A DNA stretch of 64,000 nucleotides. Source: Gammaproteobacteria bacterium. GTDB taxonomy: Bacteria > Pseudomonadota > Gammaproteobacteria > Poriferisulfidales > Poriferisulfidaceae. Below the pieces are notes generated by a model, which was not told the origin of the DNA, searched no databases, and saw nothing but the letters and a program-made list of their open reading frames with translations. Of this stretch, positions 13,580-48,422 are shown one piece after another. Every line of letters starts with the position of its first letter. Position 1 is the first letter of the stretch. The stretch lies in assembly GCA_028819565.1 (NCBI GenBank), contig JAPPLD010000008.1:1-64000 (forward strand). The letters are read 5' to 3'. The position numbers and the translations under genes are program-made.

Positions 13580-13639
13580 GATGCGGGTGTGATGCGTTTA
13601 GCGATTATGTCTCAAAATCCGCAAAAGTATAATACTGAA

Positions 13640-14908
13640 ATGAAAGTCCACCGCACCGTCCGATACCGCCTACATCCCGGTTCTGCCAACAAGAATCAAC
13701 AGTTGCACGGCACCGCTGGAGCCTGCCGATTCGTCTGGAACCACATGGTTGGAAAACTTAGAGACGACTACGAATATTATGGTGAATGCAACTTCCATTA
13801 CATGTCAACGAAAACAGTCCCTACACAGGGATTGGGTCGAACTTTCACGATTTTGAGGAAGCACAGTTACAAGTGGTTGCAGGGCTACTCGGCGTACATC
13901 GTCAAGAGTTCACTCCAGCCCATCGAGAGAACTTACAAGGCATTCTTTGCAGATGTGAAAGCAGGCGGAAAACTCAACCGCAAGCCACCACGCTCGCATG
14001 GCAAGTACACCACTAACCTTTCGTTTCCGATTGATTGCTATTGCTCAAGAATATCCGGCGAAAGTCTGTACGTGCAGAAGATCGGATGGATGAAAATGGC
14101 TGGCAATAACCCATACCCGGATGGCGAGTTCAAGTCCGGGCGGGTCCGTTACGAGTGTGGGAACTGGTATGCCTACCTAGTCTACGAAGTGGAGGCTCAA
14201 GCGAGCCTTTCGCATTCCATCCGGGAAGTGGGAATCGACCGCAACATCGCCGATGGACGGTTGGCGGTGCTATCGGATGGGACGAAGCATGGTGGCCCTG
14301 ATCTGGAACGCAAGGTGGCGCGTCGCAAGCGATACCAGCGCAAGATGGCGCGACAGGTGAAAGGGAGCAACCGGCAGAAGGTGACGAAGGTGCGGTTGCA
14401 GAAGGCGTTCCGGGCGGAACGATTCGCCCGGTTGAACTGGGCGCACCACATCAGCAAGAGCATCGCAGGAGAGTACGATCTGGCCTACATCGAAAAACTA
14501 AATATCCGGGGCATGACGAAATCGGCCAGGGGCACGAAAGAGAAACCCGGCAAGAATGTCGGTACAAAATCGGCCCTGAACAGAAAGATTCTCGCCAGCG
14601 CATGGGGCACGCTGGAGTTGTGCCTGAACTACAAGACAGAGGTACGTCATGTCAATCCGGCGTACACCAGCCAGACATGCCATTCATGCGGGCATGTCGA
14701 CAAGGACAATAGGAAGCAAACAGATTTCAAGTGCACCGCTTGCGGGCACGCGGACGATGCGGACGTGAACGCCGCATTGAACATCTTGGCCTTCGGGAAT
14801 GAGGCTGCTGGACGTGGAGGTGGCGACACCGGCGGGGCATCCTGCCACAGTCGGCCTGAGAAGCGTCAACAAATGGGCAAGGAATCCCTTGCGGATTTTG
14901 CTACATAA
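13640..14908 (+). CDS. tnpB: TnpB, RNA-guided RuvC endonuclease of an IS605-type element (copy 1)
   Basis: TnpB proteins use an RNA from the element's right end to cut donor DNA and maintain the element. Starting at ATG 13640 (MKVHRTVRYRL, shared with copy 2) gives 422 aa. RuvC-I Asp is in EVGIDRN (D200), RuvC-II Glu in AYIEKLNIRGM (E285), and RuvC-III Asp in HADDADVNAALNI (~373-375). A CxxC...CxxC zinc ribbon (C347, C350, C365, C368) precedes it. All catalytic residues are kept, so the nuclease may be active. The Gly-rich tail (GRGGGDTGGASC) probably reflects the RNA encoded there rather than protein function. Confidence 0.92.
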   Translation: MKVHRTVRYRLHPGSANKNQQLHGTAGACRFVWNHMVGKLRDDYEYYGECNFHYMSTKTVPTQGLGRTFTILRKHSYKWLQGYSAYIVKSSLQPIERTYKAFFADVKAGGKLNRKPPRSHGKYTTNLSFPIDCYCSRISGESLYVQKIGWMKMAGNNPYPDGEFKSGRVRYECGNWYAYLVYEVEAQASLSHSIREVGIDRNIADGRLAVLSDGTKHGGPDLERKVARRKRYQRKMARQVKGSNRQKVTKVRLQKAFRAERFARLNWAHHISKSIAGEYDLAYIEKLNIRGMTKSARGTKEKPGKNVGTKSALNRKILASAWGTLELCLNYKTEVRHVNPAYTSQTCHSCGHVDKDNRKQTDFKCTACGHADDADVNAALNILAFGNEAAGRGGGDTGGASCHSRPEKRQQMGKESLADFAT

Positions 14909-26506: not shown

Positions 26507-27040
26507 ATGAATACTCCGACGATCAGTTTCCGCGTGCGCCAAGACCGGCAGGCCGACATCCGAGAATTGGTGAACTACATCAAAGACGACCCGGAGTTGA
26601 TCGGACTGGCACTGGAATACATCCGCAGCGAACCCCGGCCGGGGCACGAGGCTGCAGCGGCAGATGAGAGTCTCGGCCCGTTCCGCAATGCGGAGGCCGC
26701 CCTTTCCGTGCTGACCATGAATCTGGCTATCGCATTCAATCCAGATGCCATTTTCCTGTTCGGCAGCCGCGCAAGCGGCACCGCGCGCTCGGACAGCGAC
26801 TTCGACCTGATGGTGGTTACCCCGGACGACCAGCCTCTCGATTACCTGACGGTCCGGAAACCCATTTCCGGGTGTGGCGTGCCAGTGGATGTGGTTCCCT
26901 GCCGATACTCCGCGTTCGAGAAAAACCGGAAAGTGGTCGGCATGCTTCCTTATGCGGTCGACCGAGAAGGGAAATTGCTGGATGCGCGCGTTGATGGTCC
27001 ATTTTGGACGCGTTATCGCGAAGCATTCCCCCTGCGATGA
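26507..27040 (+). CDS. mntA: MNT-type nucleotidyltransferase antitoxin
   Basis: Protein of 177 aa. The minimal nucleotidyltransferase motif reads FLFGSRASGTARSDSDFDLM: G86-S87 and D98-x-D100 form the GSx10DxD active site. In HEPN-MNT systems this enzyme inactivates the HEPN ribonuclease by transferring AMP to a tyrosine near its active site. The first ~45 residues (ISFRVRQDRQADIRELVNYI) are an extra helical segment that may bind DNA. A strong AGGAGG site precedes the start. It overlaps the HEPN gene by four bases (ATGA). Confidence 0.85.
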   Translation: MNTPTISFRVRQDRQADIRELVNYIKDDPELIGLALEYIRSEPRPGHEAAAADESLGPFRNAEAALSVLTMNLAIAFNPDAIFLFGSRASGTARSDSDFDLMVVTPDDQPLDYLTVRKPISGCGVPVDVVPCRYSAFEKNRKVVGMLPYAVDREGKLLDARVDGPFWTRYREAFPLR

Positions 27041-27438
27041 TTTTCCCGCTCGCCTTAGGATTCCTGAAAGCGGCCGAACGGGACGCCGCCGGCATTGGGC
27101 GCCTTCTTCCAGACCTCCCGGACCTGGCCGCTTTCCATGCTCAGCAAGCCGCAGAGAAACTCGCACGTGCCGTATGTCTGCACGAGGGCCTTCCGAGCCT
27201 TCATACCCACGACATCGCACACATTGCCGAACAACTCGCCCAAGGGCACCCGCTCAGAAAAAGCCTCGCCAAACTCGACAGCCTCACCGGAGCGGCAACC
27301 GCCTGGCGTTATCCAAGCACTGAGGGCAAACTCCCGAAACCTCGTGAAATTCAGGCGGCTCTTAAGCAGATAAAAAGCACTGAGGCCGAAATTCGCGACT
27401 GGCTCTTGGCTCCGCGGTCCCCCTCCGCAAACCTTTAG
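27037..27438 (+). CDS. hepT: HEPN-domain toxin, partner of the MNT protein
   Basis: Protein of 133 aa starting at ATG 27037, which overlaps the MNT stop (ATGA). HEPN features: LKAAERDAAGIGRLL, then AFHAQQAAEKLARAVCLHEG and the buried TGAATAWRYPSTEG segment, where R91-Y92-P93 replaces the more common RNxxxH of DUF86-type toxins. HEPN-fold ribonucleases with an RYP-like signature occur in this larger branch. It would cleave RNA unless modified by the MNT partner. Confidence 0.82.
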   Translation: MIFPLALGFLKAAERDAAGIGRLLPDLPDLAAFHAQQAAEKLARAVCLHEGLPSLHTHDIAHIAEQLAQGHPLRKSLAKLDSLTGAATAWRYPSTEGKLPKPREIQAALKQIKSTEAEIRDWLLAPRSPSANL

Positions 27439-28595: not shown

Positions 28596-28783
28596 TATGC
28601 CGTCAGTCATATTGCGAGGGATGGCTGGATGCAGATCGGTGATTGCGATCGCCTGATTGACTTGAAACAAGGCGGCTATGGAGCGGCGGACGCCGGCATA
28701 TCCTGGCCGTTGTCGGGCGTTCTGCCTGCGTACCCTCGATGCCATCAAACATGCATGGAAAAGCTTCGGAATCAGGGCACAAG

Positions 28784-29926
28784 ATGACTTCAGGATCGAG
28801 CACACCCGACAGTTCATCGGCTGCACCCGTTTTCGTCACCGGTGCGGCCGGGCATGTGGGCGCCAATCTCGTGCGCCGGCTACTCAATGAAGGCACCCGG
28901 GTCCGGGTTCTGCTAAGACACGAAGAGAACAACGAAGCGCTGGAAGGCCTTGAGGTCGAACGCGTGTTCGGCGACCTGCGGGATTTGAATTCCGTCAGGC
29001 GTGCGGTCGAGGGCTGCCAAGGCGTCTATCACTGTGCGGCCAAGGTCTCGACTATCGAAGGAAACCACGCTCATCGCCGAGAAATATACGAGTGCAACGT
29101 TCTCGGCACCCGCAACATGCTGCAGGCGGCACGGGAGACGGAAGCCGGCCGGGTGGTCGTGACGGGCTCTTTCAGCGCGGTCGGCTACAACCTAGATGAT
29201 CCCTCCGCCCCCAGCGACGAGACGATGCTGTTCTATCCCATGGAACGCACAATGCCCTACGAGCGCAGCAAGACGCTCGTCGAACAGGTGTGCTGGCGCG
29301 CCGCGGCGGCCGGACAGGATGTCATCGTCGCAACGTGTTGCGCAGTTGTGGGGGGCAGCGATTTCTTCCCTTCACGATTGGGCCGAACCCTGTGCGATTA
29401 CACCAACGGCAAGCTTCACGCCTATGTCGATGGCGGCTTCGAGTTTGTCGCGGCACGGGACATCGTTGAAGGACATCGGTTGTGCATGGACCGCGGGCGC
29501 ACGGGCGAGAAATACATCTTCAGTTCCGAATACAAAACCATCTCCGACATCATCGACCTGTACGAGGAAGTCTCTGGCATCCCGCGCCCACACCGGCGGA
29601 TTCCGGTCCGCGCGATGCTTGCTTTCGCGGAAGTCGCAAGTTTTTACTTGAGCCGGTTTCATCCAAGTTTCCCTCAGCGTTTCACCCCAGGTGCCATTCG
29701 CCTGCTGCAAAAGTGCCGTCACGCCGACACCAACAAGGCGAAAGAGGAACTCGGCTACCGGCCGACCAGCATCCGCGCCGCGGTCCACGAAGCCTACGCC
29801 TTTCACTACCACCAGCGCAAGGCGATCACGAACCCGGACGCGAAACCCCCGTGCACGGATGGCACGGGACAAGTAGAAGAACTCATGCCGGATCAAGGCA
29901 CACCCATCACTTCGGACGGAGGCTGA
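28784..29926 (+). CDS. sdmB: SdmB-like sterol C-4 demethylation reductase (3-beta-HSD/SDR family)
   Basis: Extended short-chain dehydrogenase of 380 aa when started at ATG 28784 (MTSGSSTPDS); ATG 28739 and 28751 are alternatives. Nucleotide-binding VTGAAGHVGANLVRRLL (TGxxGxxG) and the catalytic YERSK (in MPYERSKTLVEQ) are present, and the rest resembles 3-beta-hydroxysteroid dehydrogenases. In Methylococcus capsulatus, SdmB works with the Rieske enzyme SdmA to decarboxylate/reduce after oxidation of a C-4 methyl group. The assignment rests on family plus location: it is one base upstream of an SdmA-like gene and heads the sterol operon. Confidence 0.82.
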   Translation: MTSGSSTPDSSSAAPVFVTGAAGHVGANLVRRLLNEGTRVRVLLRHEENNEALEGLEVERVFGDLRDLNSVRRAVEGCQGVYHCAAKVSTIEGNHAHRREIYECNVLGTRNMLQAARETEAGRVVVTGSFSAVGYNLDDPSAPSDETMLFYPMERTMPYERSKTLVEQVCWRAAAAGQDVIVATCCAVVGGSDFFPSRLGRTLCDYTNGKLHAYVDGGFEFVAARDIVEGHRLCMDRGRTGEKYIFSSEYKTISDIIDLYEEVSGIPRPHRRIPVRAMLAFAEVASFYLSRFHPSFPQRFTPGAIRLLQKCRHADTNKAKEELGYRPTSIRAAVHEAYAFHYHQRKAITNPDAKPPCTDGTGQVEELMPDQGTPITSDGG

Positions 29927-29927
29927 A

Positions 29928-31025
29928 ATGGACTCAATGACAAGCCCGCCTCCTGGCTTCGATGAAGCCAGCAATTTACGACAGAAAGCGCGCGCCGCGG
30001 GCATGGATCCGGATTATTGGTACGCGGTCGAAGAAGTACGCCGCGTCAAGCGGGGAACCGTGGTCGAGGTTGTTTTCTGGAAACGTGCCATTGCACTGTT
30101 CCGGGCGAAAGACGGCTCGTTCCATGCAGTCGAGGACCGTTGCGCCCATCGCCAGCTCAAGCTCTCCCTCGGCCATGTCGAAGACTGCCGGCTCGTCTGC
30201 GCCTACCATGGCTGGCAATACGACGGAGGGGGGCAACGTGCCGGAGGACCTCGCGAGCACCTCGGGGAAAGCTGTGAGAACGTCTCGATCCGGTCCTACC
30301 CCGTGAAAGTCCGTTACGGCCTGGTCTGGTTGTTCCCCGGAGACCCGGAAAAGGCAGAGTCGCGGCAGATTCCGGACATCCCCGAGCTCGAGGGGCCGGA
30401 CCGATGGGCCTGCGTCCCGCTCGCTTTCACCTGGTCGGCACACCACTCGATGGTAATCGACAACGTGAGCGACTTCTCTCATGCCCATCTGCACCGTGAT
30501 TACCGTCCGTTCGTCGGCGCCACCCTCATCCGCTGCGAGACCATCGGCGACGACGTGCATCTTTCCTACGACACGCAGGTCGGACGCGGACGCATCTCCG
30601 GGCTGTTCGTCGACCACAAAAAGCTCGACACCAATCACATGGATCTCTGCTACCAATACCCTTACCAGTGGTCGAACACCGATGATTGGATCAAACACTG
30701 GCTTTTTGTCCTTCCCATCGACGAACGAACCACCCGGACCTTCTTTTTGTTCTATTTCAAATCGCTGAAGATACCCCTTCTGCCGGTACACATTCCCCGT
30801 TTCGCCATGACCTTTGTTCTAAAGATCTCGAACCGCATCCTCATCGGCCCGTTGCTCACTCAGGATCAATACGCACTCGAAGGAGAACAGGAGGGTTACG
30901 AGAAACATTGGGACGCTCCGACCGTCGAGTTCAATCCCGTGGTCGAGGCTTTCCAGGACGTGACCGTACGCAAGTGGCGGGAATACCTGGCACGCAAAGC
31001 GGAGAACGGCAACGCTTATGCCTGA
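29928..31025 (+). CDS. sdmA: SdmA-like Rieske non-heme iron oxygenase, sterol C-4 demethylase
   Basis: Protein of 365 aa. The Rieske [2Fe-2S] ligands are C72-x-H74 and C91-x2-H94 (RCAHRQLKL ... CAYHGWQYD). The mononuclear iron motif NVSDFSHAHLHR gives D182, H185 and H189. In M. capsulatus, SdmA oxidises a C-4 methyl group of sterols, chemistry that eukaryotes do with the unrelated ERG25. The C-terminal hydrophobic part (LPVHIPRFAMTFVLKISN) could contact membrane sterols. The start follows the sdmB stop by one base (TGA A ATG) and the stop overlaps the next gene by 8 bases. No ferredoxin or reductase gene is nearby. Confidence 0.87.
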   Translation: MDSMTSPPPGFDEASNLRQKARAAGMDPDYWYAVEEVRRVKRGTVVEVVFWKRAIALFRAKDGSFHAVEDRCAHRQLKLSLGHVEDCRLVCAYHGWQYDGGGQRAGGPREHLGESCENVSIRSYPVKVRYGLVWLFPGDPEKAESRQIPDIPELEGPDRWACVPLAFTWSAHHSMVIDNVSDFSHAHLHRDYRPFVGATLIRCETIGDDVHLSYDTQVGRGRISGLFVDHKKLDTNHMDLCYQYPYQWSNTDDWIKHWLFVLPIDERTTRTFFLFYFKSLKIPLLPVHIPRFAMTFVLKISNRILIGPLLTQDQYALEGEQEGYEKHWDAPTVEFNPVVEAFQDVTVRKWREYLARKAENGNAYA

Positions 31026-32112
31026 ACTGCCCTTCTCGCTGACTGCGCTGTCCAGCGGCACCCTGCTCGACGCGGCAGCCATGATGCTGGCATTCTTCGG
31101 CTTCCTGTTCCTGGGTTCGAGGCTGTTGCCCGGACGCCGGATCACGGGACCGGACTACGATGGCAAATCAAGGGTCTACAGGAGCAATGGCCTTGCCTTG
31201 TTCCTGCTGACCATGATCGTGGGAGGACTTGCCCAAGTCTCCGGCTGGTTCTCTCTTTCGGTGCTGTATACCCACTTTCTCGCCCTGTTCGTGGTGGCGA
31301 ACGTATTCGCGTTTGCTTTTTCCGCCTTGCTGTACTACCAAGGCACTCGGGCTCAGGGCGACTCCCCGAGGGGATTGGAAGGCTTCTTTTACGGCGTGGA
31401 AGGCCATCCGACCTGGTTCGGGGTGGACTTGAAGTTTTTCAGCTACCGTCCTTCCCTCATCGGCCTCGCGTTGTTCAACGTCTCGTTCGCCGCCGTGCAG
31501 TACGAAACTTACGGCGAGTTGACTTTGGCGATGATGCTTTACCAAGCCTTTGCCTTCCTGTACATCCTCAACTACTTCCACTTCGAATACGGAATGGTCC
31601 ACACCTGGGACATCGTCAGCGAACGCTTCGGATGGATGCTGGTTTGGGGAGACTACGTGCTGGTGCCGTTTTTCTATTGCCTCGCCGGCTGGTGGCTGGT
31701 TCACGCAACCGAGCCCCTGCCCTCTGTCGCCGCCGTCGCGATCACCCTGCTGTTCGTCTTCGGCTTCTGGATCTTCCGCGGCGCCAACGGGCAGAAGCAC
31801 CGATTTAAGCGTAACTCTCACGCCACGATCTGGGGGAAACCCGCCGAGTCCCTGGACGGGCGCCTGCTGGTCTCCGGATTTTGGGGAATCGGGCGGCATC
31901 TCAACTATACCGGCGAGATCTGCATCTACCTTTCGTTCGCCCTGACCACCGGATTCGCATCCTGGGTTCCCTACCTGCTGCCTGCGTGGTTGGTGGGACT
32001 GTTGTCGCATCGCTCAAGACGCGACGATCGCCGCTGCCGCGCCAAGTACGGGGAACTGTGGGAGCAGTACACGAAACGAGTACGTTTCGCGATGCTGCCG
32101 TTCGTCTATTGA
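31018..32112 (+). CDS. Delta(14)-sterol reductase (ERG24/DHCR7 family)
   Basis: Integral membrane protein of 364 aa with about nine hydrophobic helices. The family signature SGFWGIGRHLNYTGEI lies at about residues 285-300, preceded by a NADPH-site-like segment (NGQKHRFKRN) and followed by a C-terminal RRDDRRCRAKYGELWEQYTK, as in ERG4/ERG24 sterol reductases. The expected reaction is saturation of the C14-C15 double bond left by CYP51. C-7 and C-24(28) reductases share this fold, so the position specificity is inferred from the adjacent cyp51. It overlaps sdmA by 8 bases and ends 14 bases before cyp51. Confidence 0.87.
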   Translation: MPELPFSLTALSSGTLLDAAAMMLAFFGFLFLGSRLLPGRRITGPDYDGKSRVYRSNGLALFLLTMIVGGLAQVSGWFSLSVLYTHFLALFVVANVFAFAFSALLYYQGTRAQGDSPRGLEGFFYGVEGHPTWFGVDLKFFSYRPSLIGLALFNVSFAAVQYETYGELTLAMMLYQAFAFLYILNYFHFEYGMVHTWDIVSERFGWMLVWGDYVLVPFFYCLAGWWLVHATEPLPSVAAVAITLLFVFGFWIFRGANGQKHRFKRNSHATIWGKPAESLDGRLLVSGFWGIGRHLNYTGEICIYLSFALTTGFASWVPYLLPAWLVGLLSHRSRRDDRRCRAKYGELWEQYTKRVRFAMLPFVY

Positions 32113-32126
32113 GGCAATCTGACGAC

Positions 32127-33515
32127 ATGACCACCGTACGTTCCACCCCACTTTCGCCGCAGGAGGCCCGGGCCATTCCCGAGGTTGCGGGCAAGTGGCC
32201 GCTGATCGGGCATTTGCTGGATTTTCAGAAAGACCCGATCGCGATGCTGCAGCGCGGCTGGCGCGAGCAAGGCGAACTCATCCGGTTCCGGCTCGGCCCG
32301 CGCGAATTCTTCCTCTTCACCGGGCCCGAAGCCCACGATTTCTATTTCCACGCACCCGAAGACCAGCTCAGCGCCAAAGAGGTCTACCAGTTCACGGTGC
32401 CCATCTTCGGGCGCGGCGTGGCTTACGACACCACACCCGAACTGATGCTCGAGCAATTGGGATTTTTGTATCCGGCGCTCAACGAAGCCGCGATGCGCCG
32501 GTTCGCCCGCATCATGTTCGAGGAAACCTGGCAGTTTGCCGAGGACCTCGGCGAACATGGGGAAGTCGACCTGCCCCACGCAATGAACGAACTCACCGTC
32601 AAGATCGCCAGCCGTTGCCTCATTGGAGAGGAAGTCCGGGCCCAACTGGACGCGGGATTCGCCGAGGCTTACCACGAACTGCAAAACGGCATCAACACCC
32701 TAGGATTCTTTTTCCCCTATCTCCCGATTCCAGCACACCGGAGCCGCGACCGGGCCCGCCGAAAAGTCGCCAAGCTCTTCGGCCAGATCATGGCGGAACG
32801 TCGGCGGACCGAAGCCCAACCTGAAGATTTCATGCAGACCCTCATGAACGCCCGGTACAAGGATGGCCACGCCCCGAGCGACGACGAGATTACCGGAATC
32901 CTGCTGACGGTGCTGTTCGCAGGCCAGCACACCAGCGCAGTGCTCGCAACCTGGACCCTTCTGGAACTTATGAGAGCGCCGTCGTACCTGGCGCGGGTGA
33001 AAGACGAAGTGCAAGACACCTACCGCGAGGCGGGAACCGTGAGCTACGAGAGCCTCAGGCACCAAGTAACGCTGGAGCACGCCATCCGTGAATGCGAGCG
33101 GATGCACCCGCCGTTGATCATGCTGATCCGCAAGGTGCTCAGGCCCTTGCACTACAAGGACCATGTCGTGCCAGCCGGTGCCCTGGCCATGGTGTCACCG
33201 GCGGTCGCTCAACGGTTGCCCCACCTGTTTGCCGACCCGAACCGCTTCAATCCGGACCGGTTCGCCCCGCCCGCATCCGAAGGCAAACAGCACCACTACG
33301 CCTTGATCAGTTTTGGCGGCGGCAAACACCGGTGCATCGGTGAGCATTTTGCTTACATGCAGTTGAAAGCAATCTGGACCGTGCTGTTTGATCGCTTCGA
33401 TTTTCAGCCCGTCACCGAGTTTCCCGAACCGAATTACGGCAGTTGGGTGACAGGCCCCAGGGAGCCCTGCCGAATCCGTTACCGCCGCCGCCCACAGGCC
33501 AGCATTTTCCAGTGA
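32127..33515 (+). CDS. cyp51: Sterol 14-alpha-demethylase, cytochrome P450 CYP51
   Basis: Protein of 462 aa from ATG 32127. The CYP51 B-C loop signature YQFTVPIFGRGVAYD is at 87-101 and the I-helix GQHTS at 266-270. The K-helix ExxR is E322-R325, and the heme loop FGGGKHRCIGEHF has C403 as ligand. It removes the 14-alpha methyl group of lanosterol-type sterols in three oxidations. Unlike the M. capsulatus enzyme there is no ferredoxin domain fused at the C-terminus, and there is no N-terminal membrane anchor like eukaryotic forms. Its stop overlaps the next start (GTGA). Confidence 0.95.
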   Translation: MTTVRSTPLSPQEARAIPEVAGKWPLIGHLLDFQKDPIAMLQRGWREQGELIRFRLGPREFFLFTGPEAHDFYFHAPEDQLSAKEVYQFTVPIFGRGVAYDTTPELMLEQLGFLYPALNEAAMRRFARIMFEETWQFAEDLGEHGEVDLPHAMNELTVKIASRCLIGEEVRAQLDAGFAEAYHELQNGINTLGFFFPYLPIPAHRSRDRARRKVAKLFGQIMAERRRTEAQPEDFMQTLMNARYKDGHAPSDDEITGILLTVLFAGQHTSAVLATWTLLELMRAPSYLARVKDEVQDTYREAGTVSYESLRHQVTLEHAIRECERMHPPLIMLIRKVLRPLHYKDHVVPAGALAMVSPAVAQRLPHLFADPNRFNPDRFAPPASEGKQHHYALISFGGGKHRCIGEHFAYMQLKAIWTVLFDRFDFQPVTEFPEPNYGSWVTGPREPCRIRYRRRPQASIFQ

Positions 33516-36500
33516 GCATCCCCCCCACCCGGCATTACGACGTCGCAATTGTCGGCGGGGGACCAGTCGGCAGTGTGTGCGCGCTCGCCCACGCGCGAAA
33601 AGGTGCCCGGGTTATCCTGCTCGAAGCGAGCCCCGAGGCTTCCAAGCGGCTGGCGGGAGAATGGCTGCACCCCCCCGCCGTGCGGATCCTGCGCGAACTC
33701 GGGATCGGCCTCGACACGCAGCCTCCCATCGGTGCAGGCAACGGGTTCGTGGTGTACCCGGAAGACGACTCGGAACCGATCGTACTTCCCTATCCGGATG
33801 GATCTCACGGATTGGCCTGCGAGCATGCGGTACTCGTTTCGCATCTGCACGAAGCGATCAAGAACGAATCGAGCATTGATTTCATTTTCAATGCACAAGT
33901 CCGCGAGGTCGTAGACGGACGAATCACTTTTACTCGCAACGGGGCCGATGAATCCGTCGCGGCCACACGGATCGTCGGCGCCGACGGCCGGAATTCGGTC
34001 GTGCGTCGGTCACTGGGCTTGCCGACGAACCACAAAACCTGCTCGTGGATGGTGGGAGTCCTGGTCGACGACGTGACGTTGCCGTTGGAGGGTTATGGGT
34101 ACGTGTTGGGAGGTGGACCCGGGCCGATCCTTATGTACCGCCTCGGGGAGCGCGGCGTGCGCATCATCGTTGATGTTCCGGCGGATCGCTGGACACCCCG
34201 GGATCGGATTGGGTTCCTGTTGGACTCGTACACCGGTTGGTTGCCGGAATCAGTCAGACCCGCATTTGTTAAGGCGCTGCGGGCGGGGCAGTTTCGCACT
34301 GCCAGTAATAAGCTAAGGCCGCGTGTTAGCTACGGGAGTCCGCATCGAGTACTAATCGGCGATGCGGCCGGGCACTACCACCCCATGTCGGCGGTCGGAA
34401 TCACCCTTGGTTTCGGCGATGCGCTTGCACTCGCTAAGAACGGGGACTTTCGCGACTTCACCAAGAAGCGCTTCCGGGCGATCCGTGCCCCAGAGTTCCT
34501 TGCCATAGGACTCTACGAGGTCTTTGCCGATCATCGGACCGAGGTGGTGGCTCTCCGGCATGCGACCTACCGAGGCTGGCGGGCAAGTTCTACAATGCGC
34601 GACCGGACCATGCGTTTGCTCGCCTGTGAAGACACATCGGTCATCCACCTGAGTTCTGCATTTTTAACGACGATGGCCCGGGCGGTTGCCGGAGAAATGC
34701 CGCGATCCTTCGACAAACTTGCCTGGCGCCGTGCCCGAGACACCTTGAATTCACTTTCGGGCCGTCTCAAATGGCTGCTGCGGGGTGCCCGGATGTTGCA
34801 CCGGGTGAGGAGTACGGGTGAAGGAGAGGACGAACAAATTCGGGACACCTGGTCCCACACGTTCCTGGTTTCCATCCCGTCGAGACCCGACGACTCTCAA
34901 CCTGCCCGCCCGTGGACAGTCGAGTCGCCCGATGCCGGCCCGGCATTGAAGAGCGCAAGCAAGCGCCTACTGGACCTCCAGGATGGGGACGGTGCCTGGG
35001 AAGGCGAGATGGTCTGGTGCCCCATGCTTACCGCGCAGTATGTGCTGCTGCACTACATCATGGGACAGCCGCTTGATCCCGACCGGCGCCGACGCGTGCT
35101 GCGGTCTTTCGAACAGACCCGTCTCGAAGGAGGCGCATGGGGCCTGCACGAACACCCGCCCCCCAACTTGTTTGTCACCACGCTGGTTTATGTCGCGGCA
35201 AGGCTGCTTGGCGTCGAGCGGGATGACCCACTGCTTAAGCCGGCCCAAGAGTTCCTGCAAACCGAAGAAGTTCTCTGCATTCCGAGCTGGGGAAAATTCT
35301 GGCTGGCGCTCCTCAATCTCTACGACTGGCGCGGAATCAACGCCATTTTGCCGGAACTATGGAGCCTGCCACGCTGGATTCCGCTGCACCCCTCCAACTG
35401 GTATTGCCATACCCGGCTCATCTACATGGCGATGGCGGCCGTCTACTCACATCGGTTTCAGGCACCCGTCACGCCTTTGATCGCGTCACTGCGAGAAGAA
35501 CTGTACCCCGAGGGCTTTGCCAACGTCGGTTTTTCCGCAGGCCGCAATCGCCTGCGAAGCGCCGACCTCCACGCACGACCCAGTGTATGGCTCCGGATCG
35601 GGTACGGGCTTTCGCAATTGTTTGAACGATTCCATAGCAAATACCTGCGTGCTCGATGCATGGACGCGATCACCGAGCGCATCAGATGGGAATTGCGAAC
35701 GACCAATCACACGAGCATTTCCCCGGTCAGCGGGCTTCTCAACATCCTGGCCTTATGGCTGCGCGCTCCGGAGGACCCCGACAGTCGTCAGGCACTCGCG
35801 AAGTTGGACGACTGGATCTGGGAAGACGAGGAATACGGGGCGCGAGTCACCGGGGCCAGAAGCATTTCGTGGGATACCGGCTTCGCCCTGCAGGCATTGA
35901 GCACGATGTCCGAACTCGACCTGGCTCCTGAAGTTCGAAACTCCCTCCAACGCGGGGCCGACTTCCTGGAAACACAACAAATCAAGATCAGTTTCGAAGG
36001 GTTTCGCGAGGCTTTCCGAAACGACCCCAAGGGAGGCTGGTGCTTTGCCGGGCAGTGGCATGGCTGGCCGGTCACCGACTGCACTGCGGAAGCGGTGCTT
36101 GGGATTATCTCCGCCCACCGCGGGGCGACGAACACGGCCATGCTCAAGGACGCGATCCAGTTCATGCTGCGAGGCCAGAACCGCGACGGAGGCTTTGGCA
36201 GCTATGAAGCACAGCGCTCCGTAATCGGGCTCGAATGGCTGAATCCGGCTGAGATGTTCGGCGAGTCAATGACCGAACATTCCTATGTCGAGTGCACCGC
36301 TTCTTGCCTTGCGGCACTCGCCGCCTGCAAGAAGCACTTTCCGGACATCACGGATCAAACAGTGACGGATGCCATGTCGCGAGCCGGCGCCCGACTTCGC
36401 CGAACCCAGGCAAGCGATGGGTCGTGGCGCGGTGTATGGGGAGTTCAGTTCATCTACGGCACTTCCTTCGGGATCAGAGGCCTGCTTGCAGCCGGAGCCC

Positions 36501-36973
36501 GTCCCGGCGACCCGGCACTACGCTTGGCCTGCCGATGGCTGCTGGACCGTCAGCGCGGGGACGGGGGATGGGGTGAGCACTACAGCGGTTGTTTCACCGG
36601 CCAGTACGTTGCGCACGATGAAAGCCAAGTCATCCAGACCGCATGGGCATTGATTGCGCTCCTTGAGGCAGACGATCCCAACTGGGCCGCAATCTCGCGG
36701 GGCGCCCGGTTCCTGCTCGACACCCAGGACGCGGATGGCGCATGGCCCAAGCAAGACATGGCCGGGGTCTTTTTCCGCACGGCTCTGCTAGACTATGTCC
36801 TGTATCGGCAGTATTTCCCCCTGCACGCCCTCGGCCTCTACGAACAGCGGCGCCGGACCCGGTTGGAACTGGCAACCATCGATTCCCTTGCCGTCGAAAC
36901 GACCGCAAGCAGCGAAACACCTTTGACTGCGGCTGCATTAGAAAAACCACACGGTGCGCACGCCCCTTCTTGA
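33512..36973 (+). CDS. Fused squalene monooxygenase - oxidosqualene cyclase (bifunctional sterol synthase)
   Basis: One uninterrupted frame of 1153 codons. The start is taken as GTG 33512, which overlaps the cyp51 stop (GTGA); the ATG at 33443 lies inside cyp51. Residues ~1-445 are a squalene monooxygenase: FAD Rossmann motif AIVGGGPVGSVCALAHA (12-28), GADGRNSVVRRSLG (156-169) and GDAAGHYHPMSAVGITLG (283-300). Residues ~446-475 are a Pro/Ser-rich linker. Residues ~476-1110 are an oxidosqualene cyclase: QW repeats (QDGDGAWEGEM, QNRDGGFGSYE, QASDGSWRGVW, QRGDGGWGEHY), active-site YCHTR (H633), catalytic DCTAE (D856-E860) and SYVECTAS (C928). DCTAE, instead of the DDTA motif, marks it as an OSC and not a squalene-hopene cyclase. 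Val two residues before the catalytic Asp is the lanosterol-synthase state. Both halves are full length with intact motifs. Confidence 0.95.
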   Translation: MSIPPTRHYDVAIVGGGPVGSVCALAHARKGARVILLEASPEASKRLAGEWLHPPAVRILRELGIGLDTQPPIGAGNGFVVYPEDDSEPIVLPYPDGSHGLACEHAVLVSHLHEAIKNESSIDFIFNAQVREVVDGRITFTRNGADESVAATRIVGADGRNSVVRRSLGLPTNHKTCSWMVGVLVDDVTLPLEGYGYVLGGGPGPILMYRLGERGVRIIVDVPADRWTPRDRIGFLLDSYTGWLPESVRPAFVKALRAGQFRTASNKLRPRVSYGSPHRVLIGDAAGHYHPMSAVGITLGFGDALALAKNGDFRDFTKKRFRAIRAPEFLAIGLYEVFADHRTEVVALRHATYRGWRASSTMRDRTMRLLACEDTSVIHLSSAFLTTMARAVAGEMPRSFDKLAWRRARDTLNSLSGRLKWLLRGARMLHRVRSTGEGEDEQIRDTWSHTFLVSIPSRPDDSQPARPWTVESPDAGPALKSASKRLLDLQDGDGAWEGEMVWCPMLTAQYVLLHYIMGQPLDPDRRRRVLRSFEQTRLEGGAWGLHEHPPPNLFVTTLVYVAARLLGVERDDPLLKPAQEFLQTEEVLCIPSWGKFWLALLNLYDWRGINAILPELWSLPRWIPLHPSNWYCHTRLIYMAMAAVYSHRFQAPVTPLIASLREELYPEGFANVGFSAGRNRLRSADLHARPSVWLRIGYGLSQLFERFHSKYLRARCMDAITERIRWELRTTNHTSISPVSGLLNILALWLRAPEDPDSRQALAKLDDWIWEDEEYGARVTGARSISWDTGFALQALSTMSELDLAPEVRNSLQRGADFLETQQIKISFEGFREAFRNDPKGGWCFAGQWHGWPVTDCTAEAVLGIISAHRGATNTAMLKDAIQFMLRGQNRDGGFGSYEAQRSVIGLEWLNPAEMFGESMTEHSYVECTASCLAALAACKKHFPDITDQTVTDAMSRAGARLRRTQASDGSWRGVWGVQFIYGTSFGIRGLLAAGARPGDPALRLACRWLLDRQRGDGGWGEHYSGCFTGQYVAHDESQVIQTAWALIALLEADDPNWAAISRGARFLLDTQDADGAWPKQDMAGVFFRTALLDYVLYRQYFPLHALGLYEQRRRTRLELATIDSLAVETTASSETPLTAAALEKPHGAHAPS

Positions 36974-37000
36974 AGAAAACTTCGACTGGAGAAAAATCGA

Positions 37001-38035
37001 ATGAGGCTTACACCTGCTAAACGATCAGATTCTCGTTCCCTCGCGGACCTTACTCCGGATGAGGTGATACGGGTAGTCAATCATTACGCCGGGCTCCACG
37101 ATGCTGACTTGGAGGATAGAAAAGAAGACTACCAATCGCTTGTCAATCACTACTACGACCTGGTGACTGATTTCTACGAATTCGGCTGGGGCCAGTCCTT
37201 TCACTTTGCGCCCCGGCATCGGGGAGAGAGCTTCAAGGAGTCGTTACTTAGACACGAGTATTTTCTCGCCGACCAGCTGTCCCTGAAGCCAGGGATGCAA
37301 GTACTTGATGTGGGTTGCGGGATCGGCGGCCCGATGCGCACTCTGGCGCATTATTCCGGGGCCAGCTTTGTCGGCATTAACAATAACGCTTACCAGATCG
37401 AACGAGCGAAAGTGCACACCGAAGATGTCCGGTCATTGTGCCGCTTCATCCGCGGCGATTACATGCAGATTCCCGAAGATGACAATTGTTACGATGCGGC
37501 CTTCGCCATTGAATCCATGCCCCACGCACCGAACAAGACCGCAGCGTTCCGGGAAGTCCTCCGCATCCTGCGCCCAGGATCTTGTTTTACAGGCTACGAA
37601 TGGTGTCTCACCGACGCCTTCGATCCGGAGAATGCCGAGCACCTTCGAATCAAGAAAGTGATCGAGAGAGGGAATGGGCTGCCGGATATCGCCGCCAAAT
37701 CGGAAATTTGCGACGCATTGCGCACGGCCGGATTCGAGGTTCTGGACGCCCGCGATCTTGCCCCTGAATCGCACCCCGAAACGCCTTGGTATCGAGTTTT
37801 ACAGGGTCGCGATCTCAGCCTAGCAAGTGTTCCACGTACACCGCTCGGGCGTGCCTTGACCAACTTGATACTAAGGGTCGGGGAGAAACTGCGGGTATTT
37901 CCGAAGGGAACCAGGATGGTCAGTACGCTGTTGAACAGGGGGGCGGACGCATTGGTCGAAGGAGGCGAAACCGGCATCTTTACTCCAATGCTTTTCTTCC
38001 TAGCCCGCAAACCTGAGCATTCAGGAACTGAATAA
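37001..38035 (+). CDS. smt: Sterol C-24 methyltransferase (ERG6/SMT type)
   Basis: SAM-dependent methyltransferase of 344 aa. The sterol-methyltransferase-specific region YEFGWGQSFHF (59-69) is followed by the SAM loop VLDVGCGIGGPMRTLA (101-116), GINNNAYQIERA and AFAIESMPHAPN, the counterparts of SMT regions I-III. These distinguish it from small-molecule or tocopherol methyltransferases. It would methylate the delta-24 side chain of a sterol. A GGAG site precedes ATG 37001, and it follows the fusion gene by 27 bases, ending the operon. C-24 alkylation is typical of plants, fungi and protists, but bacterial homologues are known from metagenomes. Confidence 0.9.
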   Translation: MRLTPAKRSDSRSLADLTPDEVIRVVNHYAGLHDADLEDRKEDYQSLVNHYYDLVTDFYEFGWGQSFHFAPRHRGESFKESLLRHEYFLADQLSLKPGMQVLDVGCGIGGPMRTLAHYSGASFVGINNNAYQIERAKVHTEDVRSLCRFIRGDYMQIPEDDNCYDAAFAIESMPHAPNKTAAFREVLRILRPGSCFTGYEWCLTDAFDPENAEHLRIKKVIERGNGLPDIAAKSEICDALRTAGFEVLDARDLAPESHPETPWYRVLQGRDLSLASVPRTPLGRALTNLILRVGEKLRVFPKGTRMVSTLLNRGADALVEGGETGIFTPMLFFLARKPEHSGTE

Positions 38036-38136
38036 GGAACATTTCTGACCTGAGTCCCCTGCGAACCATCCACCCCGTCGCAGGCTCTTGCCGGTAGTCG
38101 TCCCAGAGGGTTTTAGAAATTTGACAAAATAGCCGG

Positions 38137-46006: not shown

Positions 46007-47053
46007 ATGGCGCGCGTACCGAGCGGTTCCGTGCCAGAGAAAGAATCTTCTGCTTCCGCCTACCGGGAGGCCGGGGTCGATATCGACGCCGGCAATCGCT
46101 TGGTGAAACGCCTCACGCCGCTCGCGCAGCAAACCTTCAATGAACAAGTCCTCAGCGACCTTGGCGGGTTTGGCGGGCTTTACCAGCTGGCACAGGATTA
46201 CACGCAACCTGTATTAGTGTGCGGGACGGACGGGGTCGGCACCAAGCTGCTCCTGGCTCAAAAGCTCCAGCAGCATGAAACCATCGGCATCGACCTCGTT
46301 GCCATGTGCGCAAACGACATCCTGACGCACGGCGCACGCGCCTTGCTGTTCCTCGACTATTACGCCTGCGGGACGCTGAACGTGGAGGAAGCGGAAGACG
46401 TGGTCCGCGGAATCGCGGCGGGATGCCAACAGGCCGGTTGCGTCCTGCTTGGCGGGGAGACGGCCGAAATGCCTAAGCTCTACCGCCCCGGCGACTACGA
46501 CCTAGCTGGATTCTGCGTCGGCATCGCAGAGCGCGACCGACTGCTCCCCCGCCCGGATATCCAGCCGGGAGACGTTTTGATCGGAATGGACTCCAGCGGC
46601 GTGCACGCCAACGGCTTCTCGCTCGTCAACCGCCTGCTGGAGACGGCTCCGGAAGATCCGGACCGGCTGGAAGCGCTGCTGCAACCCACCACGATCTACG
46701 AACCACACCTGCGGGAAATCATTGATTCCGGGAAGGTCTTGGCGCTGGCCCACATCACGGGTGGCGGTCTGACTGAAAACATTCCGCGCGTCCTGCCGGA
46801 AGGCCTGTCCGCACAAATCGATCTCGAAAGCTGGACACGCCCGGAATTGTTCGACTGGATACAGTCGGAGGGCAACGTGGACGAAGAAGAGATGCGACGC
46901 ATCTTCAACTGCGGAATCGGCATGGTCGCGTTGGTCCGTTCGGAAGACGCAGATACCGTGACGCAGAACATCCAATCCACTGGACTGGGCGCCCGAATCA
47001 TTGGTGAAATCTTTGCCCAGGAAGGTCCCGCTCAAACGGCATATAATGCATAG
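46007..47053 (+). CDS. purM: Phosphoribosylformylglycinamidine cyclo-ligase
   Basis: AIR synthetase, fifth step of de novo purine synthesis, 348 aa. Conserved YREAGVDIDAGNRLVKRL, VCGTDGVGTKLLLA, GIDLVAMCANDILTHGA and LLGGETAEMPKLY are visible, with TGGGLTENIPRVLP in the second half. The final residues (AQTAYNA) run up to the TnpB element, whose left end begins within about five bases of the stop, so the last codons may have been altered by the insertion. Confidence 0.96.
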   Translation: MARVPSGSVPEKESSASAYREAGVDIDAGNRLVKRLTPLAQQTFNEQVLSDLGGFGGLYQLAQDYTQPVLVCGTDGVGTKLLLAQKLQQHETIGIDLVAMCANDILTHGARALLFLDYYACGTLNVEEAEDVVRGIAAGCQQAGCVLLGGETAEMPKLYRPGDYDLAGFCVGIAERDRLLPRPDIQPGDVLIGMDSSGVHANGFSLVNRLLETAPEDPDRLEALLQPTTIYEPHLREIIDSGKVLALAHITGGGLTENIPRVLPEGLSAQIDLESWTRPELFDWIQSEGNVDEEEMRRIFNCGIGMVALVRSEDADTVTQNIQSTGLGARIIGEIFAQEGPAQTAYNA

Positions 47054-47090
47054 GGGAATTATGCAAAATATACAAAAGTATAATTCTGAA

Positions 47091-48422
47091 ATGAAGGTTC
47101 ACCGCGCCGTCCGATACCGCCTGCACCCCGGTTCTGCAAGAAAAAATCAGCAGTTGCACGGCACCGCCGGAGCCTGCCGGTTCGTCTGGAACCACATGGT
47201 CGGGAAGCTCAGGGACGAGTATGAGGCGTGGGGCACCTGCAACCTCTCCTACATGTCCACGAAGAACGTCCCGACGCCGGGACTGGGCCGGACTTTCACG
47301 GTGCTACGGAAGCACAGTTACAAGTGGCTGCAGGGCTACTCGGCGTATATCGTCAAGAGTTCGCTGCAACCCATCGAAAGGGCTTACCAGGCGTTCTTCA
47401 AGGACTTGGAGACAGGCGGGAAGCTGAATCGGAAGCCCCCTCAGTTCCATGGCAAGTGGACGACCACGCCGAGTTTCCCGATCAACTACCAATCGGCAAA
47501 GGTGGCGGGCGACAGCCTGTACGTGCAGAAAGTCGGCTGGATGAAGATGACCGGCACCAACCCGTACCCGGACAGCGAGTTCAGGTCCGGCACGGTCAAG
47601 TATGAATGCGGCAACTGGTACGCCTACCTAGCGTACGAAGTGGAGGATCAAGCGAGCCTTCCTCATGCCATCAAGGAAGTGGGCATCGACCGGAACATCG
47701 CCGAGGGCCGGCTGACTGTGCTATCGGACGGGACGATGCACGGCGGCCCGGACCTGGAGCGGAAAATGGCCAAGCGCAAGCGGTATGAACGGTCAATGGC
47801 GCGCAAGCGTGAGGTCTATTGGAAGAATCAAAAGAGCCCCTGCGGGCCGAAACCCCAGGGCAGGCCCCGCTACCAGCCCTCCAAACGGTATCTGCGAACC
47901 CAGATAAAGCACCAACGGGCCTACGCGGCGGAATGCTTCGCCCGGTTGAGTTGGGCGCATCACGTCAGCAAGGGCATCGCATCCGAATACGATGTCGCCT
48001 ACGTGGAGAAGCTGAACATCCGGGGCATGACAAAATCGGCCAAGGGCACGAAACAGAAACCCGGCAAGAATGTGAAATCGAAATCCGGCCTGAACCGGCA
48101 GATTCTGGCCAGCGCATGGGGCACGCTGGAGTTGTGCCTGAACTACAAGATGGAAGTCCGCAAGGTGCCTCCGGCGTACACCAGCCAGACCTGCCATTTA
48201 TGCGGGCATGTCGACAAGGACAGCAGGAAGAAAACAGACTTCAAGTGCACCGCTTGCGGGCACGCGGACGATGCGGACGTAAACGCCGCGTTGAACATAT
48301 TGGCCTTCGGGAATGGGGCTGCTGGACGTGGAGGTGGCGACACCGGCGGGGCATCCTGCCACAGTCGGCCTGGGAAGCGTCAAGAAATGGGCAAAGAATC
48401 CCTTGCGGATTTTGCTACATAG
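47091..48422 (+). CDS. tnpB: TnpB, RNA-guided RuvC endonuclease of an IS605-type element (copy 2)
   Basis: Protein of 443 aa from ATG 47091 (MKVHRAVRYRL), homologous along its length to copy 1 but with many substitutions and an inserted segment after the KRYERSMA helix (EVYWKNQKSPCGPKPQGRPR). RuvC motifs EVGIDRN, AYVEKLNIRGM and HADDADVNAALNI are intact, as is the zinc ribbon (TCHLCGH, FKCTACGH). A longer frame exists from ATG 47001 inside purM, but identity with copy 1 begins at 47091. Confidence 0.92.
   Translation: MKVHRAVRYRLHPGSARKNQQLHGTAGACRFVWNHMVGKLRDEYEAWGTCNLSYMSTKNVPTPGLGRTFTVLRKHSYKWLQGYSAYIVKSSLQPIERAYQAFFKDLETGGKLNRKPPQFHGKWTTTPSFPINYQSAKVAGDSLYVQKVGWMKMTGTNPYPDSEFRSGTVKYECGNWYAYLAYEVEDQASLPHAIKEVGIDRNIAEGRLTVLSDGTMHGGPDLERKMAKRKRYERSMARKREVYWKNQKSPCGPKPQGRPRYQPSKRYLRTQIKHQRAYAAECFARLSWAHHVSKGIASEYDVAYVEKLNIRGMTKSAKGTKQKPGKNVKSKSGLNRQILASAWGTLELCLNYKMEVRKVPPAYTSQTCHLCGHVDKDSRKKTDFKCTACGHADDADVNAALNILAFGNGAAGRGGGDTGGASCHSRPGKRQEMGKESLADFAT

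Follow-up and report, generated by a model that had tools for sequence, protein, structure and literature searches.

A putative sterol C-24 methyltransferase at the end of a bacterial sterol operon with a fused squalene monooxygenase–oxidosqualene cyclase

The stretch of DNA analysed here, which we call ‘the window’, comprises positions 1 to 64,000 of contig JAPPLD010000008.1 (GenBank assembly GCA_028819565.1; 64,000 nucleotides), from a gammaproteobacterium. At positions 37001..38035 it carries an open reading frame (ORF) of 344 amino acids (aa) that resembles the sterol C-24 methyltransferases (SMTs) of the ERG6/SMT1 kind. We put at roughly 80% the probability that this ORF is a working SMT that closes an operon for de novo sterol synthesis in a sponge symbiont, and the six genes of that operon very probably specify a pathway ending in plant- or fungus-like methylation of the side chain. 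The source organism belongs to the genus of Candidatus (Ca.) Porisulfidus, gammaproteobacterial sponge symbionts. Coordinates without a locus label refer to the window and, like all six operon genes, to its plus strand.

The assignment draws on domain content, conserved motifs, a tree and an AlphaFold2 model. The C-terminal part of the protein (37835..38017) matches the Pfam domain Sterol_MT_C (PF08498) at 78.7 bits, where the cut-off is 21.7, and its core is a methyltransferase domain of the kind that binds S-adenosylmethionine (SAM; PF08241 and relatives). A profile search found PF08498 in a single gene of the source genome (1.8 Mb, 96.7% complete), and in none of 14 control genomes. The ATG start lies 27 nt past the stop codon of the cyclase gene and is preceded, 9 nt upstream, by GGAG, a Shine-Dalgarno-like sequence. 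Provisional reference sequences of yeast ERG6, Arabidopsis SMT1 and SMT2, and human DHCR24 served only for identities, for residue numbering and as three rows of the tree. Identity to this plant SMT1 is 49.7% (336 bits) and to this ERG6 41.6%; the nearest solved non-sterol enzymes score 71 bits at most, and the clustering with non-sterol methyltransferases that would speak against an SMT is not seen.

Both motifs on which the original prediction relied are present: the SMT region I motif YEFGWGQSFHF at residues 59–69 (37175..37207; yeast ERG6 81–91), and the SAM-binding motif LDVGCGIGGP at residues 102–111 (37304..37333). ERG6 residues Y81, E82, W85 and H90 are retained in the former. Position 83 is Phe in 71 of 73 SMTs of the clade to which the window enzyme belongs, the window enzyme included, and Tyr in eukaryotic SMT1/ERG6. 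In the SAM motif, D103, G105, C106, G107 and G109 are invariant across 41 aligned SMTs. The counterpart of the EATCHAP motif is ESMPHAP (residues 171–177; 37511..37531), which keeps E171 and H175 and has Pro for ERG6 Cys198; this residue, 174 in the window enzyme (37520–37522), is Pro in 61/73 SMTs of the sponge clade and Cys in all 11 myxobacterial-type rows. The claim of a true sterol methyltransferase is supported by PF08498, the region I and SAM motifs and the tree.

The SMT closes an operon of six genes on one strand, in the order SdmB, SdmA, C-14 reductase, CYP51, squalene monooxygenase–oxidosqualene cyclase (SQMO–OSC), SMT. The first encodes an SdmB-like reductase of the 3-beta-HSD/epimerase family (28781..29926, in an ORF open from 28739; PF01370/PF01073 and the SdmB tree), and the second an SdmA-like Rieske oxygenase for C-4 demethylation (29928..31025; PF00355, PF19112; 61% identical to a gene of the Sandaracinus NAT131 cluster). 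These are followed by a probable C-14 sterol reductase of the ERG4/ERG24 family (31018..32112; PF01222, 241 bits; top PDB match the Delta14-sterol reductase 4quv, E 4e-75) and by CYP51, the sterol 14-alpha-demethylase (32121..33515; top PDB match CYP51 7jj1, E 1.4e-102). A squalene synthase gene is present elsewhere in the genome. The predicted linkage to a full sterol operon is supported: this is a de novo set in a bacterial chromosome. Contamination or a eukaryotic origin was considered and rejected as unlikely, for mutS directly adjoins the SMT on its 3' side, alaS and recA also lie within the window, and congeners share the operon, among them one with a closed genome. A second ERG4/ERG24-family reductase gene of the source genome (L112:3171-4220, plus strand; G000:C9) is broken by an in-frame TAG, with intact copies in two congeners (G002 and G003, below).

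The fifth gene (33512..36973) is a single ORF of 1,153 aa in which PF08491/PF01494 are followed by PF13249/PF13243. Its squalene monooxygenase domain (33536..34681) matches human SQLE (6c6n, E 1.6e-22), and its cyclase domain (34949..36844), which contains the sequence DCTAE, matches human lanosterol synthase (1w6k, E 6.8e-133). The start codon, GTG, overlaps the stop of CYP51 as GTGA. A structural model of modest quality matches human OSC and human SQLE, each separately, at a predicted local distance difference test score (pLDDT) of 73 and a predicted template-modelling score (pTM) of 0.55, with a weak linker at about residues 453–469. The fused frame is uninterrupted in 47 of 50 sponge-cluster loci, and is in frame in each of the five cyclase-bearing congeners; in two of the remaining three loci the frame is stopped only close to the C-terminus, and the third contains an internal TAG. 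The latter (L035, an alphaproteobacterial bin; about codon 651) is a pseudogene or an assembly error. One polypeptide would carry both activities, and oxidosqualene may be channelled between them. Nor is the fusion restricted to sponge-clade loci: a pMMO-bearing gammaproteobacterium (G047) has a sterol block with an SQMO–OSC fusion at 53% identity; in a relative of that organism (G192) the cyclase is a separate ORF, and the SQMO runs off the contig end.

The main text of Kelly 2022 (PMC9531527) refers neither to squalene monooxygenase nor to any fusion, that of Brown 2023 (PMC10070321) does not contain the word ‘fusion’, and no mention was found elsewhere in the literature searched. The 3,765 positions of the lanosterol synthase alignment of Kelly 2022 (PMC9531527) suggest that the fused gene is already in those data, under the name of the cyclase. 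Provisionally, on a search of accessible main texts, the fusion and the side-chain switch described below appear to be unreported.

What sterol nucleus would result can be approached from the cyclase and from SdmA/SdmB. Aligned to human OSC, the cyclase has Val at the site of V453, as in the lanosterol type, but His where cycloartenol synthase has H477; a lanosterol-type product seems more likely than cycloartenol. At C-4, the reported outcomes differ: SdmAB removes one methyl group in Methylococcus capsulatus and two in Calothrix, and Enhygromyxa salina removes two only with SdmC (PMC10202945); two are removed in the cases of S. amylolyticus SdmAB and M. rosea (PMC12004948). The original prediction had considered a 4-methyl-24-alkyl sterol like those of dinoflagellates, formed if SdmAB takes off a single methyl as in M. 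capsulatus. The absence of SdmC from the operon (a genome-wide search for SdmC was not made), together with the dependence of E. salina on that protein, is compatible with such a product, but the enzymes themselves point elsewhere. The window's SdmB and SdmA are 58 and 61% identical to those of Sandaracinus NAT131, and only 42 and 44% to those of a gammaproteobacterium (G154) that is a methanotroph by inference from its pMMO; SdmA and SdmB are 53–65% identical to the myxobacterial-type rows and do not group with the methanotroph type. Since they stand nearer to the myxobacterial enzymes than to the methanotroph's, and since SdmAB of Sandaracinus and Calothrix is reported to strip both methyls, complete C-4 demethylation is probably the better guess, and the 4-methyl product is unlikely.

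Members of the genus include Ca. Porisulfidus sp. TsSOB, an uncultured Ca. Porisulfidus with a 1.59-Mb chromosome and Gammaproteobacteria bacterium APA_bin_21. From their titles and projects, we take the congener bins to be sponge-associated. Three of the congeners compared (G002, G003 and G004) have an SMT, and two (G001 and G005, the latter 76% complete) do not. Operon gene order and the fused protein are the same in G002, G003 and G004 as in the window, four species in all. The segment between cyclase and mutS, in contrast, varies among the five species of the genus that were compared; we term it the side-chain slot (36974..38136 in the window). It holds an SMT in the window, G003 and G004; in the last two an MNT-HEPN (nucleotidyltransferase plus HEPN) pair separates the SMT from mutS. 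In G001 it holds a DHCR24-like gene on the opposite strand (L111:11724-13415, minus) and no SMT, and in G002 an SMT, a fatty-acid-desaturase-like gene and DHCR24 (L007:4540-6078, plus). These two DHCR24-like proteins are 87% identical to each other, contain the FAD_binding_4 domain (PF01565), and are 44% (G001) and 41% (G002) identical to the reference human DHCR24 over 453–481 aa. A genome search for DHCR24, which did not extend to GGR-type Bsr Delta24 reductases, found none in the window genome or G003, and in G004 only a weak partial match to another FAD-binding protein; nor were relics of DHCR24 found in the window slot.

An SMT requires the Delta24 double bond of the sterol, and DHCR24 removes it. 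Because the two enzymes compete for this bond, the content of the slot should set the type of side chain, and the five genomes suggest that the slot is an exchangeable locus choosing between alkylated and reduced side chains. The clearest sign of exchange is the SMT of G002. It is 78% identical to that of the window, among neighbouring genes that are 93–99% identical. Synonymous divergence (dS) of this pair is 0.86 for the SMT versus 0.21–0.37 for the adjacent SQMO, OSC and MutS; the pair is the largest outlier of all. The G002 SMT is equidistant from the other three SMTs, with dS and nonsynonymous divergence (dN) raised in G002 only; accelerated protein evolution alone is ruled out, dS being raised too. 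The trees conflict as well: SdmB joins the window with G002 (99/90), and the SMT joins the window with G003 (100/93), leaving G002 outside, with starred support on both sides. On these comparisons the G002 SMT is a replacement, and the window's looks vertically inherited.

That the slot differences reflect old gene loss and ordinary divergence, with no exchange of a side-chain cassette, strikes us as improbable. Such an account could draw on the small number of species, on the dS of 0.51 between the DHCR24 genes of G001 and G002, somewhat above that of most other genes of the pair, and on the 3' tail of the OSC, which is variable in every pair, so that the left breakpoint cannot be placed; it does not sit well with an SMT anomaly restricted to G002 or with the conflict between trees. 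A recombination breakpoint at the OSC 3' end was considered and withdrawn, that stretch being variable also in pairs lacking the SMT anomaly. Returning to exchange at the slot, we give even odds to a broader proposal: that sponge symbionts from many phyla have come to share the fused-SQMO–OSC operon by its spread and that the slot is swapped between strains, recombination resetting in closely related bacteria the kind of side chain made and, with it, their biomarker signature.

Several other features lie in or near these loci. An MNT-HEPN pair related to that in the G003 and G004 slots also occurs 5' of the operon (26507-27438, plus; compare L008:11854-12785, plus), and two TnpB/IS605 OrfB-like ORFs, similar as judged by eye, flank the operon region (13589-14908 and 47001-48422, both plus). 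Desaturase-superfamily genes (PF00487) are linked to sterol clusters at L007:6035-7507 (plus), L017:18233-19660 and L020:17965-19365; those of Porisulfidus G002, a Binatia and a Nitrospira are 65–68% identical and possibly encode a sterol desaturase. A second, divergent SMT of G002 (42%; L009:9964-11091, minus) joins the second SMTs of Nitrospira symbionts (starred, 100/100).

Among 84,980 species genomes scanned, 80 SMT loci were found. In the tree built from these, the window SMT falls in a starred clade (100/98) of 74 SMTs, nearly every one of them from a sponge-symbiont bin; nine named phyla are represented. The tree contains no non-sterol outgroup, and its three eukaryotic rows, all provisional reference sequences, have long branches and weak support; within that scope, the placement proposed in the original prediction puts the enzyme with sponge-symbiont SMTs inside the SMT set. 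Of 70 clade loci, 46 have all seven domains near the SMT, and 17 have the SMT alone within the stretch examined. Phylum labels require 15 changes on the tree against a minimum of nine, in agreement with the horizontal transfer of three other cluster genes reported by Kelly 2022 (PMC9531527); these are the labels of bins, which can hold misplaced contigs. SMT distances track the distances of the remaining six domains (Mantel r 0.89; 0/2000 permutations), and hence the SMT mostly travels with the sterol block. The searches made gave no support for spread by virus or plasmid: IMG/VR yielded no SMT relative, and the plasmid matches listed were all to generic methyltransferases, with identities no higher than about 31%. 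The Sandaracinus NAT131 cluster has two SMTs, 53–54% identical to the window's, that fit a tested pair as described in print. SMT duplicates in tandem or close by occur at L031:1177-4339 (three), at L065 and L068:7087-10996 and at L047 (two each), and are candidates for multi-step alkylation.

Some observations weigh against a working SMT in a complete pathway. Sponge-clade SMTs carry Pro for the conserved Cys of ATCHAP and Ala for yeast D152, and some metagenomic cluster SMTs are inactive in vitro (PMC10070321). The congeners are all metagenome bins, with only G004 a single contig (a one-contig chromosome). EBP and ERG2 isomerases were not found in a search that, for ERG2, lacked a positive control, and the nuclear end product is therefore uncertain. 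It might also be supposed that the main substrates of the enzyme are sterols imported from the sponge, so that it remodels those of the host instead of completing a bacterial pathway. Genome titles indicate a host-associated lifestyle, an SMT of the Chlamydiae that is not accompanied by other sterol genes works in vitro (PMC10070321), and the loci with an SMT alone would suit such a role. Yet the window SMT closes a complete operon, in a genome with squalene synthase, and diverges in step with the rest of its block, which makes the host-sterol role distinctly unlikely. Methylation of some other isoprenoid is barely credible, given the sterol-specific C-terminal domain, the identity of about 50% to the reference plant SMT1 and the sterol operon, even though the core is that of an ordinary class I SAM methyltransferase and the structural neighbours of the AlphaFold2 model (mean pLDDT 86.3, pTM 0.86) are class I methyltransferases, natural-product methyltransferases nearest, with no solved SMT structure among the matches listed.

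For the preferred reading, a working SMT at the end of a de novo pathway, gene identities, operon conservation, the fused ORF, slot variation and the G002 replacement come from sequence; enzyme activities, step order, products, channelling and the mechanism of exchange are our proposal. Squalene would come from the synthase encoded elsewhere. SQMO–OSC would epoxidise and cyclise it to a lanosterol-type sterol that keeps its Delta24 bond; CYP51 and the C-14 reductase would rid C-14 of its methyl group and double bond; and SdmA/SdmB would act at C-4, probably stripping both methyls. The SMT would then methylate C-24, with SAM as the donor; the product would be a sterol with a 24-methylene or possibly a 24-ethylidene group, perhaps Delta8 and fecosterol-like. 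Slot exchange between strains would set, for each lineage, whether the side chain is alkylated or reduced.

Side-chain alkylated steranes serve as markers of eukaryotes and sponges in ancient rocks, a use that bacterial SMTs already weaken. If the side-chain gene is exchanged locally between close relatives, C27 versus C28–C30 sterols would say little about lineage in sponge holobionts. With the entire pathway linked in a closed congener genome, de novo production by bacteria can be tested directly, and a natural SQMO–OSC fusion would offer a two-step enzyme for studies of oxidosqualene channelling and for sterol engineering.

Bacterial SMTs and their clusters are already known; what is provisionally new here is the SQMO–OSC fusion and the slot variation. 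Brown 2023 expressed 24 metagenomic SMTs, of which 8/10 from symbionts and 12/14 from the environment alkylated desmosterol in vitro; three give 24-isopropyl side chains, and several sit with sdmA/sdmB in clusters (PMC10070321). These sponge-symbiont SMTs are like the window's in family, habitat and linkage to sdmA/sdmB, cyclase and other sterol genes, and no enzyme in the tested set was identified as the window's. The argument that bacterial side-chain alkylation undercuts a eukaryote marker, touched on also in the original prediction, is not new, Brown 2023 having made it with measured enzymes (PMC10070321). Kelly 2022 described clusters of steroid genes in Ircinia symbionts of 10 phyla, flanked by SMT or squalene synthase (PMC9531527). 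The window shares with them the one-strand order ERG24–CYP51–cyclase, a flanking SMT and horizontal transfer; the SMT shares the strand of the other genes in the window, whereas in those clusters it is encoded on the opposite one. A flanking DFR-like gene in those clusters is probably SdmB, SdmA/SdmB not being annotated in the main text. Eukaryotic SMT1/ERG6 enzymes are alike in motifs and domain layout, and differ from the window SMT at the two residues described above (ERG6 positions 83 and 198) and in that the latter sits in a bacterial operon. The M. capsulatus pathway (SdmAB, 8,14-Bsr; PMC13277303) has SdmAB, CYP51 and cyclase in common with the window, which has instead a canonical-type C-14 reductase and, in addition, an SMT. 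The cholesterol pathways of the myxobacteria Enhygromyxa and Sandaracinus (PMC10202945, PMC12004948) have SdmA/SdmB among the closest outside the sponge-cluster clade, and a canonical C-24 reductase is known from E. salina. The myxobacterial-type loci (n=3) differ from the window in having SQMO and cyclase as separate genes, 5.8–7.5 kb apart, where the window has a single fused one.
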